A DNA stretch of 64,000 nucleotides from an uncultured Bacteroidales bacterium (GTDB taxonomy: Bacteria; Bacteroidota; Bacteroidia; Bacteroidales; P3), in contig CALUMK010000006.1 of NCBI GenBank assembly GCA_944321735.1, positions 1-64,000 on the forward strand, read 5' to 3'. The notes beneath the pieces were generated by a model, which had not been told where the DNA came from, did not search any database, and saw only the letters and a program-made list of their open reading frames with translations. Each line of letters opens with the position of its first letter. Positions within the stretch are counted from its first letter, which is position 1. A program made the translations under genes and the position numbers. Shown in pieces: positions 30,595-63,811 of this stretch.

Positions 30595-32517
30595 TCAAGA
30601 TTTCCAGTAGAACGACATCCCGTTATCCGATACCAGAAGCTCTTCTGCCAGCAGTTCTTCCCAGTACTGCTTCAGAAGGGCTTCTTGCTCTTGCGGGATG
30701 CAGGCCGACAATTCCTTAAGACTCATGGCTTTCTGCTCCAACAAAGCTTGTATTTCCTGCCTCAGGCGTCGGCGGTCGCTTTCCGTAAGGCAGGGATGTT
30801 TCTTCGACAGGCAGACATCGCACAAGCCGCAGTTCCCGCTCCTGTCTTCCCCGAAATACTGCAAAAGGTAACGGCTCCGGCACAGGGAACTTTCGGTGGC
30901 ATACCCGATTACGGCATCCAATTTCCGCCGGGCGTTGGCTTTCCGGGCATCATATACTTGCGGCGGCAGAATCCAACCTCCGGACTTCCGTCTTTCCATC
31001 GCCCAGGACAGAAGGACTCCTTGGGGCAAAGGCCGGTAATCCACTATTGACACCTGATGCAATTGCACTAGAAGCCTGCTTGCTTGCGTTTCGCTCAAGC
31101 CGGCACGACGAGCCAGGTCTTTTTCCGAAACCGGCACGTAATCCGAATAAAGGCTTCCGCCATACTGCCGCAACAGGACTTGCAGCAAGGCTTCCGCCTC
31201 CGGATGTTCCACTTGGTAGCGATAGACATCCGTATAATCGGCCAATATCCTGAGCTTGGAACTTTCGCTGGCCGGTTCGGAGAAGCGGAAATACCCGGCT
31301 CTTTCCAGAAAAGACAATGCGGAAGCCGTTTCCACGACCGGGAAATCATAAGTATGGCAAAAATCCCGCAAATCGAAAGGATAGACGGCCCCTTCCCCGC
31401 TGCCGACCGGAATCTGGCAATAATTCCCTGCCGCTTCGTAGACCCGTTGGATAAACGAGATTTCCGGATAGGATTTGGCAAAATTTTCCTCGGCCTTCAA
31501 ACGGTCGGAAGCATGATAGACCAGCAAGGCGAAAGCCCGTTTCTCGTCCCTTCCTGCTCGCCCGGCTTCCTGGAAATAAGCCTCCAAAGTGTCGGGCAAA
31601 TCCAAATGGACCACGAAACGCACATCCGGCTTGTCGATTCCCATCCCGAACGCATTGGTCGCCACCATGACCTGGACTCGGTCCTCGACCCAGGCCTGCT
31701 GCCGATCGGAACGCTCCTCATGATCCAAACCGGCATGGTAATAGGTAGCCGAAAAGCCCATCTGCTGAAGGGCTTGAGCCACCTCCGCGGTCTTCCTGCG
31801 GCTGCGGACATAAACAATCCCGCAACCGCCCACTTTGCGGATGATACGCCCCAGACGGCCCATCTTGTCCTCGTCCTCAATCACGTAATAAACCAGATTA
31901 TCCCGTTTGAAGCTCTTCTGGAATACCTTCTTGGGTCGGATCCGCAGTTTTTCCTGAATATCTTCCACCACATCGGGCGTAGCGGTCGCGGTCAAGGCCA
32001 ACAGCGGCACACCGGGCAGCATGGGGCGAAGTTCGGCAATTTGCAGATAGGGAGGCCGGAAATCATAGCCCCACTGGGAAACACAATGGGCTTCATCCAC
32101 AGCCAGAAGGCAGACTTGCATCCTTTGAAGATGAGCCAGGAACATCTCGTTCCGGCATCGTTCGGGCGACACATACAGGAACTTGTAACGTCCGTGGACC
32201 GCTCCGTTCAATACCAGTTCGGTTTCCTGACGGGACATTCCGCTATAGACCGCGGCAGCGGCAATGCCCCTTTTACGGAGGTTTTCCACCTGATCCTTCA
32301 TCAACGCAATAAGGGGCGATATGACCAAGCATACGCCCCTCATGGCCAATGACGGCACTTGAAAGCAAATCGACTTGCCTCCCCCGGTAGGAAGAAGAGC
32401 TAAGGCATCGCGCCCTTGCAGCACATGTTCGATGATTTCCTGCTGCAAGGGCCGGAACTGCCTGTAGCCCCAATATTCCTTTAAGATTTGATGTATTCTG
32501 GAACTAATTGTTTCCAA
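30595..32517 (-). CDS. recQ: ATP-dependent DNA helicase RecQ
   Basis: 640 residues. Helicase motifs in order: FRPLQQEIIEHVLQGRD (motif 0), Walker A LLPTGGGKS (about 40-48), VISPLIALMKDQV, DEAHCVSQWGYDFRP (about 136-150), ALTATATP, GIVYVRSRRKT, and ATNAFGMGIDKPDVRFV with QEAGRAGRDE. The RQC zinc site follows in LCRSRY then CGLCDVC (about 560-590). The C-terminus has a helical stretch but no clear HRDC domain. It unwinds DNA 3'-5' in repair and recombination. Its start codon lies inside the 3' end of the upstream lipoprotein gene (14-bp overlap), so it is probably expressed with that operon. A second, fused RecQ is at 61663-63714. Confidence 0.94.
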   Translation of the reverse strand: METISSRIHQILKEYWGYRQFRPLQQEIIEHVLQGRDALALLPTGGGKSICFQVPSLAMRGVCLVISPLIALMKDQVENLRKRGIAAAAVYSGMSRQETELVLNGAVHGRYKFLYVSPERCRNEMFLAHLQRMQVCLLAVDEAHCVSQWGYDFRPPYLQIAELRPMLPGVPLLALTATATPDVVEDIQEKLRIRPKKVFQKSFKRDNLVYYVIEDEDKMGRLGRIIRKVGGCGIVYVRSRRKTAEVAQALQQMGFSATYYHAGLDHEERSDRQQAWVEDRVQVMVATNAFGMGIDKPDVRFVVHLDLPDTLEAYFQEAGRAGRDEKRAFALLVYHASDRLKAEENFAKSYPEISFIQRVYEAAGNYCQIPVGSGEGAVYPFDLRDFCHTYDFPVVETASALSFLERAGYFRFSEPASESSKLRILADYTDVYRYQVEHPEAEALLQVLLRQYGGSLYSDYVPVSEKDLARRAGLSETQASRLLVQLHQVSIVDYRPLPQGVLLSWAMERRKSGGWILPPQVYDARKANARRKLDAVIGYATESSLCRSRYLLQYFGEDRSGNCGLCDVCLSKKHPCLTESDRRRLRQEIQALLEQKAMSLKELSACIPQEQEALLKQYWEELLAEELLVSDNGMSFYWKS

Positions 32518-58513: not shown

Positions 58514-60448
58514 TCAGTGCTGTTTCACTTTTTCGAGCATGTTTTCAATGTTGCACCACACATCGAAATCCTCCGGATCGACGCTTCGGAAGCTCCAGTC
58601 GAAAAGCGCCTGCAAGTCTTCGGAATACGGGAACGGCAAACGGCCCAATTCGGCCTCGGACAGGAGCCGGTCCGGTATCGAGGATTGAGCAGAAGCCTTC
58701 CGGGAATCCCCGCCTTCATCGTAATAGGCATCATAACCATAACCATGAAAAGGCCGCTCGCCTGCCAAGAGTTCGTAAAACAGCCCCATTATATTGCCTA
58801 TTTCACAGCATCTTTGGACGCAATACTCAATGAAGCCATAGCTGTCAAAGTCGTCCTCGGTCTTGGGAGCTTGGAAAAATTTTTCACGATTGGCTAAATC
58901 AGCGCAAGCAATGTCCTTTCCTTTGCAATAGCGAAGCAACTGGAGCCGTTCTATCTCTTTCGACAGGCATAGCGCTGGAATCCGGCAATGGCCTTCGTCA
59001 TCAAGACGCCAGGATTCTATCTTCTGGGCATCGACCCTGACCCTGTTCTCGTGAAGATAAACCATGCCTTCCAGGATATCCCGGAACCAATGCCAGGCAT
59101 CGCTTTCTTCCGCTTGCCCTGTTTTTTGCAGTAAGGGCGCATAGGACGGTGTGACGAGGTAGGCCCGTTTTCCCCAGAGTCCGTTTTTTTCCACCGGAAT
59201 CAGGTTGGGATGCGTCAAGGCGGCGATTCGATCCAGCTCCTTTTCTATCTGCGGCAGCGCATTTCCTTCCAAGGGCACGGAAATCCAAAGGCTGAGATGC
59301 CGGCCGTGGGAATCGATGGCATTCCACTCGCTGACATTTCCTTCCGAGACCTGGCGTTGCAGCTGGTAAGCGCCGTCAACGACCCAATCTCCCGGATGAA
59401 GGGCGGGAACAGGCTCGCGGCCTTCCTTGTTGAGGATATCATCGGGATTGAGGATGTCGTCGGGCGATGCCTGCGGCCGGACGGGGACAGCCCAATCGAC
59501 GTGAGACGCGGCTAGGCTTTGCAGCTTCCAGGCCGAGGGTCGGCTTTCGGGTTCGGCATCCAAACAGCTCTGAATCGAGACATCGGTTTCCGGCTTGTAT
59601 GGCTCCCCTGCCCGGCTTTTGGCTTTGCCGAAAAGACTCTTGAAAAAACCTTTGCTTGCGGACGTTCCGGCTTTCGAAGACCGCGACCATGAAAAACCTT
59701 GCGCAAAGACCAGGCTCGCCAAGGCGGGAGAGTAATTCCGGCCGATGATTTCTTCCGGATTCTCTATCTTCTTGCCTTTGGGTGCTTTTCCGGAAAAATC
59801 GTCCGGCATCACGTTTGTCCTCTTGTCTGTCAACAGATTCCGCAGGCACATTCCCAAAGCCCATATATCGCTGGCAGGCATGTATTGAGGCTCCCTGTAC
59901 CATGCTTCGGGCGCCATGTATTCCTTGTTCCCTGTTTCCGGATCGGCTTCTTCCACCACCAAAGCGTGGCGGCGCAGCAGGATTCTTTGCGTCAGGTTAA
60001 TGGCGGGCGGTGCCAACAAGAAATGCCCTTGGCCGTCCTGCCAGATGTTGCAAGGTTCCACTGCGCCGTGCAGCAAAGCCATGGAATCCAGGTAAGCCAA
60101 GGCCGAAGCCGTATCGTGAAGGAAGTTCCAGGCTTCCTGCTCGGACAGGGCATCGCTGAAGCGGTCTGCCGAGACAGGATAATACGGGATTGCCACATAG
60201 GCTTGCGCATCGCACACATCGAAGGCTTTGACAGGCAAGAGATTGGGATGCTCCAGTTTGTTCAAATAAGAATATTCCCGGATAAATCCATCGATACCGG
60301 CCTGTTCCATCGCGGGGAAAATCCGCAGCAGCACATCCTGGCCGTCCTGTTCGTCTTTGGCTCGCCATACTTGGGCCAAATCCTGATACTTCTTGAAGCA
60401 TGTCAAACGGTAGCGCTTGGCAAAAAGTGTGTTTTCTTGGTGTTTCAT
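58514..60448 (-). CDS. Tandem degenerate protein-kinase-like protein (double pseudokinase)
   Basis: 644 residues. First kinase-like domain, about 10-330: the glycine loop is absent, the beta-3 Lys position is Arg42 (VLLRIF), the catalytic loop reads LLHGAVEPCNIW in place of HRDLKPxN, the DFG region reads LAPP, yet the activation-end EYMAPEAWY and DIWALGMCL are kept. An insert of about 50 residues rich in Ser/Lys (FSWSRSSKAGTSASK) lies in its C-lobe. Second domain, about 355-640: similar layout, catalytic loop MVYLHENRVRVDAQKIESW, also lacking HRD and DFG, with MGLFYELLAGERPFHGYG. Both are probably inactive and might bind a partner or nucleotide. No membrane segment. The role is unknown. Confidence 0.78.
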   Translation of the reverse strand: MKHQENTLFAKRYRLTCFKKYQDLAQVWRAKDEQDGQDVLLRIFPAMEQAGIDGFIREYSYLNKLEHPNLLPVKAFDVCDAQAYVAIPYYPVSADRFSDALSEQEAWNFLHDTASALAYLDSMALLHGAVEPCNIWQDGQGHFLLAPPAINLTQRILLRRHALVVEEADPETGNKEYMAPEAWYREPQYMPASDIWALGMCLRNLLTDKRTNVMPDDFSGKAPKGKKIENPEEIIGRNYSPALASLVFAQGFSWSRSSKAGTSASKGFFKSLFGKAKSRAGEPYKPETDVSIQSCLDAEPESRPSAWKLQSLAASHVDWAVPVRPQASPDDILNPDDILNKEGREPVPALHPGDWVVDGAYQLQRQVSEGNVSEWNAIDSHGRHLSLWISVPLEGNALPQIEKELDRIAALTHPNLIPVEKNGLWGKRAYLVTPSYAPLLQKTGQAEESDAWHWFRDILEGMVYLHENRVRVDAQKIESWRLDDEGHCRIPALCLSKEIERLQLLRYCKGKDIACADLANREKFFQAPKTEDDFDSYGFIEYCVQRCCEIGNIMGLFYELLAGERPFHGYGYDAYYDEGGDSRKASAQSSIPDRLLSEAELGRLPFPYSEDLQALFDWSFRSVDPEDFDVWCNIENMLEKVKQH

Positions 60449-60524
60449 GTTGCGTTTGTTTTTTCCCTTTTATACCGGAAAACACAAAAAGTAACCGGGA
60501 AATTTTCTGCAACCAACCAGAGCC

Positions 60525-61643
60525 TCAAAAAAGCCGAGGTTCCACAACTTTTATGGCATACACATTGCTTCGCCCTCTCCTGTACTTGCAAACACCTTCG
60601 GATTCCATATTCTCCAAAAAGCTCTTTAGTTTCTCTTTCGACCAATCGAGCTGCAATTTGATAGCAATGTCTTGGGCTTTCAGTTCGCGACCTGTCAGCA
60701 ATTCAATCATCTTTCGCTTTATATCCTCTGTCTCAAGTGGTCTTTTATTTTCTACGACATTCCCCTCGCAATCTACCGGAACAGCTCCGCAAGCAATCAA
60801 TTCCATGTTCGCGTTCTTTTCGGTCTGGTCCGGCATCCTGACAAAAATGGAGATATCCTGTGCGTTTTTCCGTTGACGCTGGAGGCCGGCTTGAACACCG
60901 CTCCATGTGCCGCCTTTATTGTCGGATTCTGCCACGAAGATATCTTGCGCCATACCGTAAATGATTTCGTTCCGAGCCATCGCCAAACCCACATCCCAAC
61001 CGGCCTTGGGTTGAAAATAACTTACTATAAGCAATTTTCCTTGAACAAGATATTTGTACAACGCCTTATATCCGCTAGAAAATGTCATAATGCCCTGCGG
61101 CAAGACCGCAATGCTTTTCCCCTCTGCTTGCAAAGCCGACTCCAAGGCTTGCCTGTCCACTCCCTTGGCGTAGCCGCTCACAATCACTTTGCCATGGGCA
61201 ACTTCTCTTTGCGCCACTTTCCGAGTAAAATCAAGGGAAACCTGGCCAGACTTCCGAGAGCCAACAATCGCGGTAGCCGGTTTATTGAACAAAGCCCTGT
61301 CTCCCCGCGAGTAGAAAAATATCGGCGCATTGTATTTCAAGTTCGCTTTCAGCTGATTCGGATATTCCCGATCCCATATAGCGGTCATCTCGAAGCCTTG
61401 CTCCTGTAGGTTCTCCGCCATGAAAGCGTAATTCGGGATATTGGCAATGCAGGAGTTTATATTCTCTATCAACTTGGAATCCAGCAAATACTGTACTGTC
61501 TTTATCTCATCGGATGCCTTGAAGAAATCGGAAAGCTGTTCTCCTCTCGTATGACATTGGACTAAAATCTTCATCTTGTCGGCAGTATGGATGCCAGCAA
61601 GATGCGCCAAGGCCATCCAATAAGGCAATTCGTTCTTTTCCAT
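60525..61643 (-). CDS. DprA-like Rossmann-fold protein, divergent, partner of RecQ-PRTase
   Basis: 372 residues. Residues about 1-110 are helical, starting PYWMALAHLAGIHTADKM as in DprA. The Rossmann domain (about 120-300) has ATAIVGSRKSGQVSLDF, KVIVSGYAKGVDRQALESAL and KSIAVLPQGI. The usual RNRxIA motif is MARNEIIYGM, and the SGxL region is replaced by SDNKGGTWSGVQAGL. The C-terminus (about 310-372) is a winged-helix-like module (LKAQDIAIKLQLDWSKEKLK). Classical DprA loads RecA during transformation; this divergent, operon-linked form is more likely part of a specialised module with the gene 19 bp upstream. It could be a nucleic-acid or nucleotide sensor. Confidence 0.82.
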   Translation of the reverse strand: MEKNELPYWMALAHLAGIHTADKMKILVQCHTRGEQLSDFFKASDEIKTVQYLLDSKLIENINSCIANIPNYAFMAENLQEQGFEMTAIWDREYPNQLKANLKYNAPIFFYSRGDRALFNKPATAIVGSRKSGQVSLDFTRKVAQREVAHGKVIVSGYAKGVDRQALESALQAEGKSIAVLPQGIMTFSSGYKALYKYLVQGKLLIVSYFQPKAGWDVGLAMARNEIIYGMAQDIFVAESDNKGGTWSGVQAGLQRQRKNAQDISIFVRMPDQTEKNANMELIACGAVPVDCEGNVVENKRPLETEDIKRKMIELLTGRELKAQDIAIKLQLDWSKEKLKSFLENMESEGVCKYRRGRSNVYAIKVVEPRLF

Positions 61644-61662
61644 GGTTTCGTGAATATTATCT

Positions 61663-63714
61663 CTAAATATTGTCGCCTCCCACCGTCTTGGCTATGACAA
61701 GGGGGGCCGTTTCAGCAGCTCCTGCCTTGGCCAACATACGGCCTATTTCTTTGATGGTAGCTCCGCTGTCGTAAATATCATCTATCAATAGGATGGATTT
61801 CCCCATGATTTCCTTTTGATTTTGGCAAGTAAAGGCATCTTTCACATTGTCCGCCTTGCCGTAATGTTGCTCAAAAATCTTCTGGGGTTTCGTTTCCTTT
61901 TGCTTGACCAAACCGTCCGATACCGGTATTTTCAAGATTTTCCCTATCGTATGGGCAAAATTCCGCACCAAATCACCTGATTCCGTGGAAGGGACATATA
62001 ATATAATATCGAATTTCTTGTTCTTGAACCGATACCGGAATGCCCGGAGTGTCTGCCTGACCAAAACATCCGGGAAATCCCCGCCGTTTTCGTATTTGCA
62101 ATGATGAATGATTCTTCCCACATTGGAATCGCCATAATAGGAAGCCGCCACACCGGTGAGCATATTCGGGATTCTTTTGAAGGAAAGTTCCGGGAAAAGA
62201 TTCTCCTTGAAGTCCTGGACATCCAACCTATCTGCTTCCTGCACTTCTATTGTCAACTTGGGCAGGCCGGTATTGTCGCAAGTCCTCGTCCAGTCTATCT
62301 CTTCATGGTCGCCTAAATACCGGCACAGGAACTCCATCCTTGGCTGCTTCGTCTCCACATAATCCAACATCTGCTGCAAATCTTCTAATTTGGCAGCATT
62401 GAGGGAACTATAAAGGCTGTAATCGAGTTCAGGGGCATCGTACCTGTACTCGTAGAATTTTTGCCGTCCCATCGTCACTTCCTTGATGATTCCTTGCTCG
62501 ATCAAATCCTCCCGGATGACCCTGACGGCCGTCTGTTTCATGTTCGTGGCCATCATCATGCCCTTTTCACTCAAGGGTTCTTCCTTCAATGCCTCGATGA
62601 ATTGCAGGTATTTCCTTTCCGAAGGACGGGCAGAGTCGATGAACGATCGGGGAAGCCTGTAATCAGCCATAACGCCATTTTCATCTCGCTGTTCATTGAA
62701 AAACAAAATGATATCTGTCGGTTTCCCATCTCGTCCCGCCCTGCCTATTTCCTGATAATAATGGATGGGCGAAGCCGGGATCTGCAAATGAATCACAAAA
62801 CGGATATCGGGTTTGTCTATACCCATTCCCAATGCATTAGTGGAGACGATGCATTTCCAACGGTTTGACAAAAATCCTTCTTCTATTTCTTTTCTTGTCT
62901 GGGCATCGAGGCCGGCATTATATTCCACGGCATCTATTCCCTGACGTTGCAACCATTTCATATACAAAGATGTCTGAGTTCTGGTCCCTGCATAGACAAG
63001 CCCTGTACCCGGCAAGCCTTGCAAATGGTGCTTCAGCCAGACCATCTTTTCCTCTTCCGATGTGGTCTTGATGACGTAAAGCCGGAAATTGGTTCGCATG
63101 AGAGAGCCTCGGATTACCTCCAAATTATTGCCTAGCTGGATTTCTATATCATGCTGCACTTTTTCCGTTGCCGTAGCGGTGACGGCCAAAATCGGCATGT
63201 CCTGCGGCAAATAATTCCGAACCAGATTCTTGATTCGCCGGAAGGCCGGGCGGAAGTCATGCCCCCATTGAGATATGGTGTGGGCTTCATCGACCACAAC
63301 CATCGAGAGCCGAATTTTGGACACGGCTTCTAACCAATGTTCGTTTTCCTGTCTTTCTGGTGCTATGTAAAGGATTTTAAGCTTCCCGTCTATGGCTTCC
63401 TGCAAAGATTTTTCGTTATCTTCCGGAGTTTCTTCGCAATTGATGCAACGGGCGGCGATACCGCGTCTCCTCAATGCCGTCACTTGATCTCGCATCAAGG
63501 CAATCAAGGGGGAAAAGACAATGGTGGTGCCTCCAAAGAGTACTGCCGGGAATTGATAGCACAAAGACTTCCCGAAACCGGTTCTCTCTATGACCAATAT
63601 CCGGCGGCCTTGCAGCAATGCGCTGATAGCCTTCCATTGTTCGTCATAAAAACGCGAAAATCCGAAAATCTGCCGTAACTTTAGCTCCGCTTCTGTCCTT
63701 GTCATGGATAACAT
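61663..63714 (-). CDS. RecQ-type helicase fused to a ComF-like phosphoribosyltransferase
   Basis: 683 residues. RecQ core (about 10-350): Walker A RTGFGKS (PTGGGKS is usual), VFSPLIALMRDQV, DEAHTISQWGHDFRP, AVTATATE, STNALGMGIDKPDIRFV and QEIGRAGRDG. The RQC zinc cysteines of ordinary RecQ are missing; a winged-helix-like part (about 385-440) and a linker follow. The C-terminal third (about 500-683) is a ComF-type phosphoribosyltransferase with the PRPP loop SILLIDDIYDSGATIKEIG (about 638-656). It presumably couples DNA unwinding to a nucleotide-related chemistry. Immediately upstream of the DprA-like gene. TAAGTTTG at 63719-63726 (-) could be its -7 box, giving a nearly leaderless message; a second Met at 63705 is a possible start. 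Confidence 0.88.
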   Translation of the reverse strand: MLSMTRTEAELKLRQIFGFSRFYDEQWKAISALLQGRRILVIERTGFGKSLCYQFPAVLFGGTTIVFSPLIALMRDQVTALRRRGIAARCINCEETPEDNEKSLQEAIDGKLKILYIAPERQENEHWLEAVSKIRLSMVVVDEAHTISQWGHDFRPAFRRIKNLVRNYLPQDMPILAVTATATEKVQHDIEIQLGNNLEVIRGSLMRTNFRLYVIKTTSEEEKMVWLKHHLQGLPGTGLVYAGTRTQTSLYMKWLQRQGIDAVEYNAGLDAQTRKEIEEGFLSNRWKCIVSTNALGMGIDKPDIRFVIHLQIPASPIHYYQEIGRAGRDGKPTDIILFFNEQRDENGVMADYRLPRSFIDSARPSERKYLQFIEALKEEPLSEKGMMMATNMKQTAVRVIREDLIEQGIIKEVTMGRQKFYEYRYDAPELDYSLYSSLNAAKLEDLQQMLDYVETKQPRMEFLCRYLGDHEEIDWTRTCDNTGLPKLTIEVQEADRLDVQDFKENLFPELSFKRIPNMLTGVAASYYGDSNVGRIIHHCKYENGGDFPDVLVRQTLRAFRYRFKNKKFDIILYVPSTESGDLVRNFAHTIGKILKIPVSDGLVKQKETKPQKIFEQHYGKADNVKDAFTCQNQKEIMGKSILLIDDIYDSGATIKEIGRMLAKAGAAETAPLVIAKTVGGDNI

Positions 63715-63811
63715 GCCACAAACTTACACATAATTTCTGGTTCATACCTGCATGCGCTTATCAATCGAACCGGCCAGGGAACCTTCGAAACTAAAAAAAA
63801 TGCGGGAGGAA

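Follow-up and report, generated by a model that had tools for sequence, protein, structure and literature searches.

A probable PsyrTA (RqlHI) toxin-antitoxin module of a Bacteroidota type, with a broken four-cysteine site, as an accessory gene pair in an uncultured Bacteroidales genome

The original description of PsyrTA, as a toxin-antitoxin pair, comes from Pseudomonas syringae (Sberro et al. 2013, as cited in PMC8790059 and PMC9122126). According to Russell and Mulvey, PsyrT is an orthologue of RqlH, and the corresponding pair of Escherichia coli F11 is RqlHI (PMC4670107). In the results they describe, the phosphoribosyltransferase (PRTase) domain of RqlH is toxic and the DprA-like RqlI binds and neutralises it; free RqlH causes SOS induction and filamentation, conversion of D663 to alanine removes the effects on growth, SOS and filamentation, and RqlH without the PRTase domain loses RqlI binding (PMC4670107). 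A 2025 Bacteroides phage study already predicts PsyrTA in its strain jmh43 and counts it among the systems whose mechanism is still unknown (PMC12135933). The present study concerns two genes in a 64,000-nucleotide stretch of an uncultured Bacteroidales genome (contig CALUMK010000006.1, positions 1 to 64,000; hereafter the window), which had been proposed from the sequence alone to be a candidate defence or DNA-damage system. The pair is very probably a PsyrTA (RqlHI) toxin-antitoxin module, accessory in this genome. The proposal was right as to kind, with the system present in a defence database and an effect on DNA integrity reported for the E. coli homologue, and wrong as to novelty: the system was already known, and this copy belongs to a Bacteroidota clade whose zinc site is broken. 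The features of the pair are:

61663..63714, minus strand: psyrT (rqlH), RecQ-like helicase, linker with a broken four-cysteine site, and C-terminal PRTase; predicted toxin
60525..61643, minus strand: psyrA (rqlI), DprA-like protein of 372 residues; predicted antitoxin
63559..63582, minus strand: helicase motif I of PsyrT, TGFGKSLC, residues 45-52 (K49), placed by alignment
61747..61794, minus strand: phosphoribosyl pyrophosphate (PRPP) loop of PsyrT, ILLIDDIYDSGATIKE, residues 641-656, read from the sequence

Both proteins are recovered by the PADLOC models for PsyrTA (PDLC03928/PDLC03927), the search that had been suggested for them. The PsyrT model has 820.5 bits and is matched end to end (protein residues 4-681 on model positions 3-688 of 689), and the PsyrA model is the best of three matches of the partner, with 243.3 bits over residues 30-317 of 372. 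The ShosA model gives the same partner 112.4 bits, and the ShosT model gives the C-terminus of PsyrT 23.5 bits. As controls, the ordinary RecQ of the window has 359.6 bits to the PsyrT model, along model positions 3-373 only, and the canonical DprA on contig C3 of the same genome has 100.2 bits to the PsyrA model and 219 bits to the ShosA model. The original prediction had mentioned that DprA-PRTase pairs are listed among anti-phage candidates; these are real systems, namely shosTA, PsyrTA and rqlHI. With PsyrTA of P. syringae the window shares the same two proteins, differing in that the PsyrA match spans only part of the protein and in its Bacteroidota-type toxin with the broken four-cysteine site. 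With RqlHI it shares the gene order (RecQ-PRTase, then DprA-like), the PRPP-pocket aspartates, and the helicase lysine and DEAH residues; its PsyrA has 372 residues, compared with 400 reported for F11 RqlI (PMC4670107) and 462 in an E. coli plasmid copy. ShosTA likewise consists of a PRTase and a DprA-like antitoxin, and PDB 9vzo, named as the DprA-like antitoxin ShosA, is a weak match of PsyrA (32.7 bits); however, the PRTase of ShosTA stands alone, while the window PsyrT carries a fused helicase.

The two genes are intact open reading frames on the same strand, at the coordinates originally predicted, with psyrT upstream and 19 base pairs (bp) between them (61644-61662). PsyrT has 683 residues, with helicase and PRTase fused in frame. 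Its helicase part matches Pfam DEAD (95.1 bits) and Helicase_C (75 bits) in stretches within residues 25-330, and its PRTase part matches Pribosyltran (29.2 bits; cut-off 26.3). A ComF-like PRTase with a PRPP loop at residues 638-656 had been proposed; the Pribosyltran match supports the PRTase, the loop is refined to 641-656, and the match to NCBIfam comF (41 bits, residues 533-674) is far under the cut-off of 233.55. PsyrT passes the RecQ subfamily model TIGR00614 (recQ_fam; 334.9 bits, cut-off 219.8), as does the ordinary RecQ of the window. Its shortfall against the recQ equivalog TIGR01389 (373.6 bits, cut-off 640.2) says little, because the ordinary RecQ fails the same cut-off with 504 bits. 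PsyrA has 133.9 bits to Pfam DNA_processg_A and 106.3 bits to the dprA equivalog TIGR00732, under a cut-off of 191.15 that the C3 DprA passes with 218.4 bits. The true start of psyrT is probably 63705 (Met4) rather than 63714, since the Met4 column holds methionine in 10 of the 12 other aligned PsyrT and six of those start there. A motif that we take to be a Bacteroidetes-type -7 box, TAAGTTTG, lies at 63719-63726; the window holds 30 such motifs where 30 are expected, and it is given no weight.

Pairing of the genes was examined at 20 psyrT loci: six from 61 relatives, seven more from 395 genomes of the class, the four of a single genome_contigs scan (L050-L053), and three on plasmids, these being the top three of nine records with at least 80% cover, a choice that favours close relatives. 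The co-occurrence that the original prediction proposed as a check is found: at 17 of the 20 loci psyrA immediately follows psyrT in the same orientation; one further locus (G336) is cut by a contig end. With self-chosen thresholds (E of 1e-150 for PsyrT and 1e-45 for PsyrA), the 395 class genomes divide into six with both genes, two with psyrT only (G332, G336), three with psyrA only and 384 with neither, which gives a Fisher p of about 5e-10 when kinship between genomes is ignored. The three genomes with psyrA only (G121, G141, G173) have a DprA-like gene beside a stand-alone PRTase of 193-218 residues, and these PRTases have 49-64 bits to the PsyrT C-terminus and 36-41 bits to ShosT; from these scores they look like ShosTA-type pairs. 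Small PRTase and DprA-like pairs were observed in three Bacteroidia genomes (L084 1506-3001, L085 6598-8261 and L086 1362-2897). Their DprA-like partners match the PsyrA model with more bits than the ShosA model, the opposite of the canonical DprA, and the pairs are possible links between ShosTA and PsyrTA.

The catalytic residues that were checked are conserved. An alignment of 19 PsyrT, which excludes the truncated G336 copy, shows no variation at K49, D142, E143, H145, D645, D646, D649 or T653; S650 is present in 18 of them and replaced by threonine in G332. By motif rather than by alignment, D649 corresponds to D663 of F11 RqlH, which is needed for toxicity. In 12 aligned PsyrA (the window copy and 11 others), R224, N225, Y229, G244, G245 and T246 are invariant. 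The original prediction had noted that the usual DprA motifs are altered; RNEIIYG at 224 and KGGTW at 243 are indeed present, although not as deviations: because these six of their residues are invariant across the alignment, motifs of this type are, as judged from these sequences, marks of the PsyrA antitoxin family.

Trees separate both proteins from their ordinary relatives. In a DprA-like tree of 32 rows, one branch (100/97) sets off 17 PsyrA, a second (100/99) the 12 other DprA rows, and a third (97/85) three rows labelled ShosA-like. In a helicase tree of 27 rows, 19 PsyrT split from eight RecQ at 100/100, with a long-branch warning and some RecQ rows cut by locus ends. The sister of the window PsyrT is that of L052, from the uncultured Bacteroidales RUG12352 (69% identity in PsyrT and 51% in PsyrA). 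Three groups (G013/G024, L050/L051/L053 and G031/G189/G223) are common to the two trees, which is what one would expect of psyrT and psyrA travelling together. Full co-inheritance is not shown, because the trees disagree on the E. coli-type outgroup, which is placed beside the window and L052 for PsyrA but beside G043 and G052 for PsyrT. The domain folds are common to ordinary RecQ, DprA and ComF, and kinship of the PRTase with ComF (41 bits) and of PsyrA with DprA would suit a helper of natural competence. Such a role is highly improbable and was rejected, given that the genome has a canonical dprA on C3 that passes the equivalog cut-off, that PsyrA falls under this cut-off and in a clade of its own, and that the pair is accessory. 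The genome has two further DprA-like genes. One, on contig C11 (L027 7974-9062), has 138.7 bits to the dprA equivalog (cut-off 191.15) and a very long branch; the label ShosA for it, suggested by 186 bits to the ShosA model, was rejected, as the canonical C3 DprA has 219 bits to the same model. The edge of contig C19 (L028 1-240) truncates a fourth DprA-like gene, of which the end is present.

The part of the finding with slight novelty is a Bacteroidota PsyrT clade in which the four-cysteine RecQ site has been lost. PsyrT positions 458, 475, 479 and 482 presumably correspond to the zinc ligands of RecQ, which form a four-cysteine pattern. In the window PsyrT this pattern is broken (P458, W475, C479, T482), leaving one of the four cysteines, which agrees with the earlier description of a RecQ core without the zinc site. 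The canonical recQ said to lie elsewhere in the window is also there, as a RecQ-family gene at 30595-32517 on the minus strand with an unbroken pattern. All four cysteines are complete in six of six E. coli-type PsyrT, compared with none of 13 Bacteroidota-type PsyrT, two of which have three (G043, G052) and 11 of which have one; in the helicase tree the Bacteroidota-type PsyrT form a clade apart from the E. coli-type. These observations would fit a divergent Bacteroidota subtype of PsyrTA in which the zinc site has been lost and the helicase serves as a regulatory scaffold, a refinement of the toxin-antitoxin reading rather than an exclusive alternative to it. This refinement is rather unlikely: 19 of 19 PsyrT retain the motif I lysine and DEAH, so ATPase activity would be expected; another cysteine, at position 464 in most Bacteroidota-type PsyrT, could serve a different site; and loss of zinc need not stop unwinding.

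The module is accessory in this genome, on a stretch delimited by comparison with relatives:

60510..63807, no strand: accessory stretch of 3298 bp; blastn blocks meet at 60509 and 63808

Full-length psyrT is present in one of 13 genomes of the genus and in six of 61 relatives (11 of which are 61-88% complete), so the pair is not core in the genus; in the class, psyrT occurs in eight of 395 genomes. The flanking kinase gene (58514-60448) is present in two of the 12 other genus genomes, G001 and G011, and the site comparison covers these two, the other ten being without the flanking kinase. Both have matching DNA up to 60509 and from 63808, with only 38 and 37 bp between and no psyrTA; the difference may be either a gain here or a loss there. 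The original prediction regarded the recQ gene of the pair as specialised, and the pair is both accessory and distinct from ordinary recQ and dprA. The GC content of the accessory stretch is 0.471, compared with 0.507 for the window, which is not extreme (6.6% of windows of the same size are lower). A count limited to alleles with at least 99% identity puts the E. coli plasmid allele in 53 of 5426 E. coli genomes. In the phages set, 32 records had a match, but no single place in any of them reached 80% cover of the query. A search of viral_contigs with only two peptide patterns, which could miss distant copies, gave 44 stretches carrying one of the patterns, and no relative is encoded in any of these.

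Linkage to defence genes, which had been proposed as a check, is seen near relatives on plasmids. On E. coli plasmid NZ_OX030731.1 (L054 2832-10130) psyrTA is flanked by hsdS and hsdR, genes of a type I restriction system, and the copy of an Acinetobacter plasmid comes after the BREX gene pglX; for a Nostoc plasmid, the annotation near psyrTA shows no defence gene. Ten neighbours at four loci picked as promising were scanned with PADLOC, and eight had a match: a type I restriction enzyme (161 bits), HEC-01A (536) and PDC-S11 (369) at G113; PDC-S02 (67) and HEC-05 (88) at G387; capP (196) at G449, together with two proteins without a match; and SoFic (92) and the C-terminus of a type IIG enzyme (35) at L052. 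Outside that scan, many loci have housekeeping neighbours when judged by eye. The linkage does not extend to the window copy, where matches among 12 scanned neighbours are limited to kinases, and a defence island around it was rejected on that ground. One kinase about 7.5 kilobases from psyrTA has 228 bits to mad6, through the kinase domain alone (residues 4-262 of 979); we read this match as generic, though a link to defence is conceivable. The flanking kinase has 80.8 bits to NCBIfam MAD6, under the cut-off of 460, and was rejected as a third component, being present in the two relatives without psyrTA at the site. The flanking kinase gene and the part of contig C6 past the window (L026 9431-18867) make up a cluster of Ser/Thr kinases, a PP2C phosphatase, FHA and trypsin-like proteins, and the protein of this gene has nine further kinase matches in the genome (C4, C6).

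The original prediction tentatively assigned DNA sensing to RecQ and DprA and action on nucleotide or base pools to the PRTase; the best-supported roles are instead a PRTase toxin and a DprA-like antitoxin. By analogy, the Bacteroidales copy would work like E. coli RqlHI, and we infer the trigger, the acceptor and the anti-phage role. PsyrA would bind the PRTase domain of PsyrT and keep the toxin in check. Release would follow the loss of PsyrA or its diversion, for which the likeliest agent is foreign DNA that is single-stranded or replicating and is recognised by the helicase and DprA folds. The freed PRTase would then use PRPP on an acceptor (a nucleobase, a nucleotide or DNA), and the resulting DNA damage and growth arrest would abort infection by a phage or penalise cells that lose the element. 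A DprA and PRTase pair has been described as protecting against T7 and lambda, and this pair is in our own reading ShosTA-like. A broader and rather unlikely proposal is that Bacteroidota-type pairs are a distinct PsyrTA subtype, whose RecQ part would have given up zinc-stabilised duplex handling to become a DNA-docked regulator; the DprA-like protein and helicase would jointly lock one shared PRTase effector, ShosTA would be the same lock without the helicase, and the small PRTase-DprA pairs of the three Bacteroidia genomes would be links.

Several observations weigh against the toxin-antitoxin and defence reading. Identity to the E. coli plasmid pair (the E. coli copy compared, rather than that of F11) is only 33% for PsyrT and 25% for PsyrA, and among the papers listed by literature searches none was seen to test a Bacteroidota-type pair. 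At two of the 20 loci (G043, L033 9149-14765; G332, L082 6667-8685) psyrT stands alone with its catalytic residues kept; in G043 a SNF2-family gene directly follows. RqlH alone is common in Gram-positives, occurring in nearly all of those in the set of Russell and Mulvey; in their experiments the isolated RqlH PRTase domain was not toxic and helicase mutants behaved in complex ways (PMC4670107). Because solo toxins keep their catalytic residues and RqlH occurs alone in Gram-positives, toxicity is not universal. One study of an E. coli PsyrTA detected no phage protection and found growth slowed. Among the 12 neighbours of the window copy scanned with PADLOC (two at E 0.01 and ten at E 1e-10), the only matches are to kinases, through kinase domains, and a survey describes PsyrTA as under-represented in defence islands, although it co-localises with other families when it does occur there (PMC10924106). 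Some of these points would favour a pair that serves genome maintenance or DNA repair and plays no part in defence, in which the PRTase modifies DNA nucleotides and the DprA-like protein and helicase resolve them. Russell and Mulvey published such a repair model for RqlHI (PMC4670107), and both the solo RqlH of Gram-positives and the negative phage test agree with it; yet the pair is patchy (one of 13 genomes in the genus, eight of 395 in the class), its site is empty in two relatives, and neighbours differ among the relatives listed. Patchy spread, empty sites and varied neighbours are more in keeping with an accessory element than with maintenance, and the repair pair is quite unlikely. For the PsyrTA module, an anti-phage role is plausible but unproven, with solo toxins and the unprotective E. 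coli PsyrTA weighing against a simple defence reading; for the window copy the chances of such a role are about even.

What appeared to be a new candidate is thus settled as a member of a known toxin-antitoxin family, and a separate Bacteroidota clade with a broken zinc site is shown within that family. Because close relatives differ in whether a given site holds the pair, they offer a natural comparison for what the PRTase effector does.

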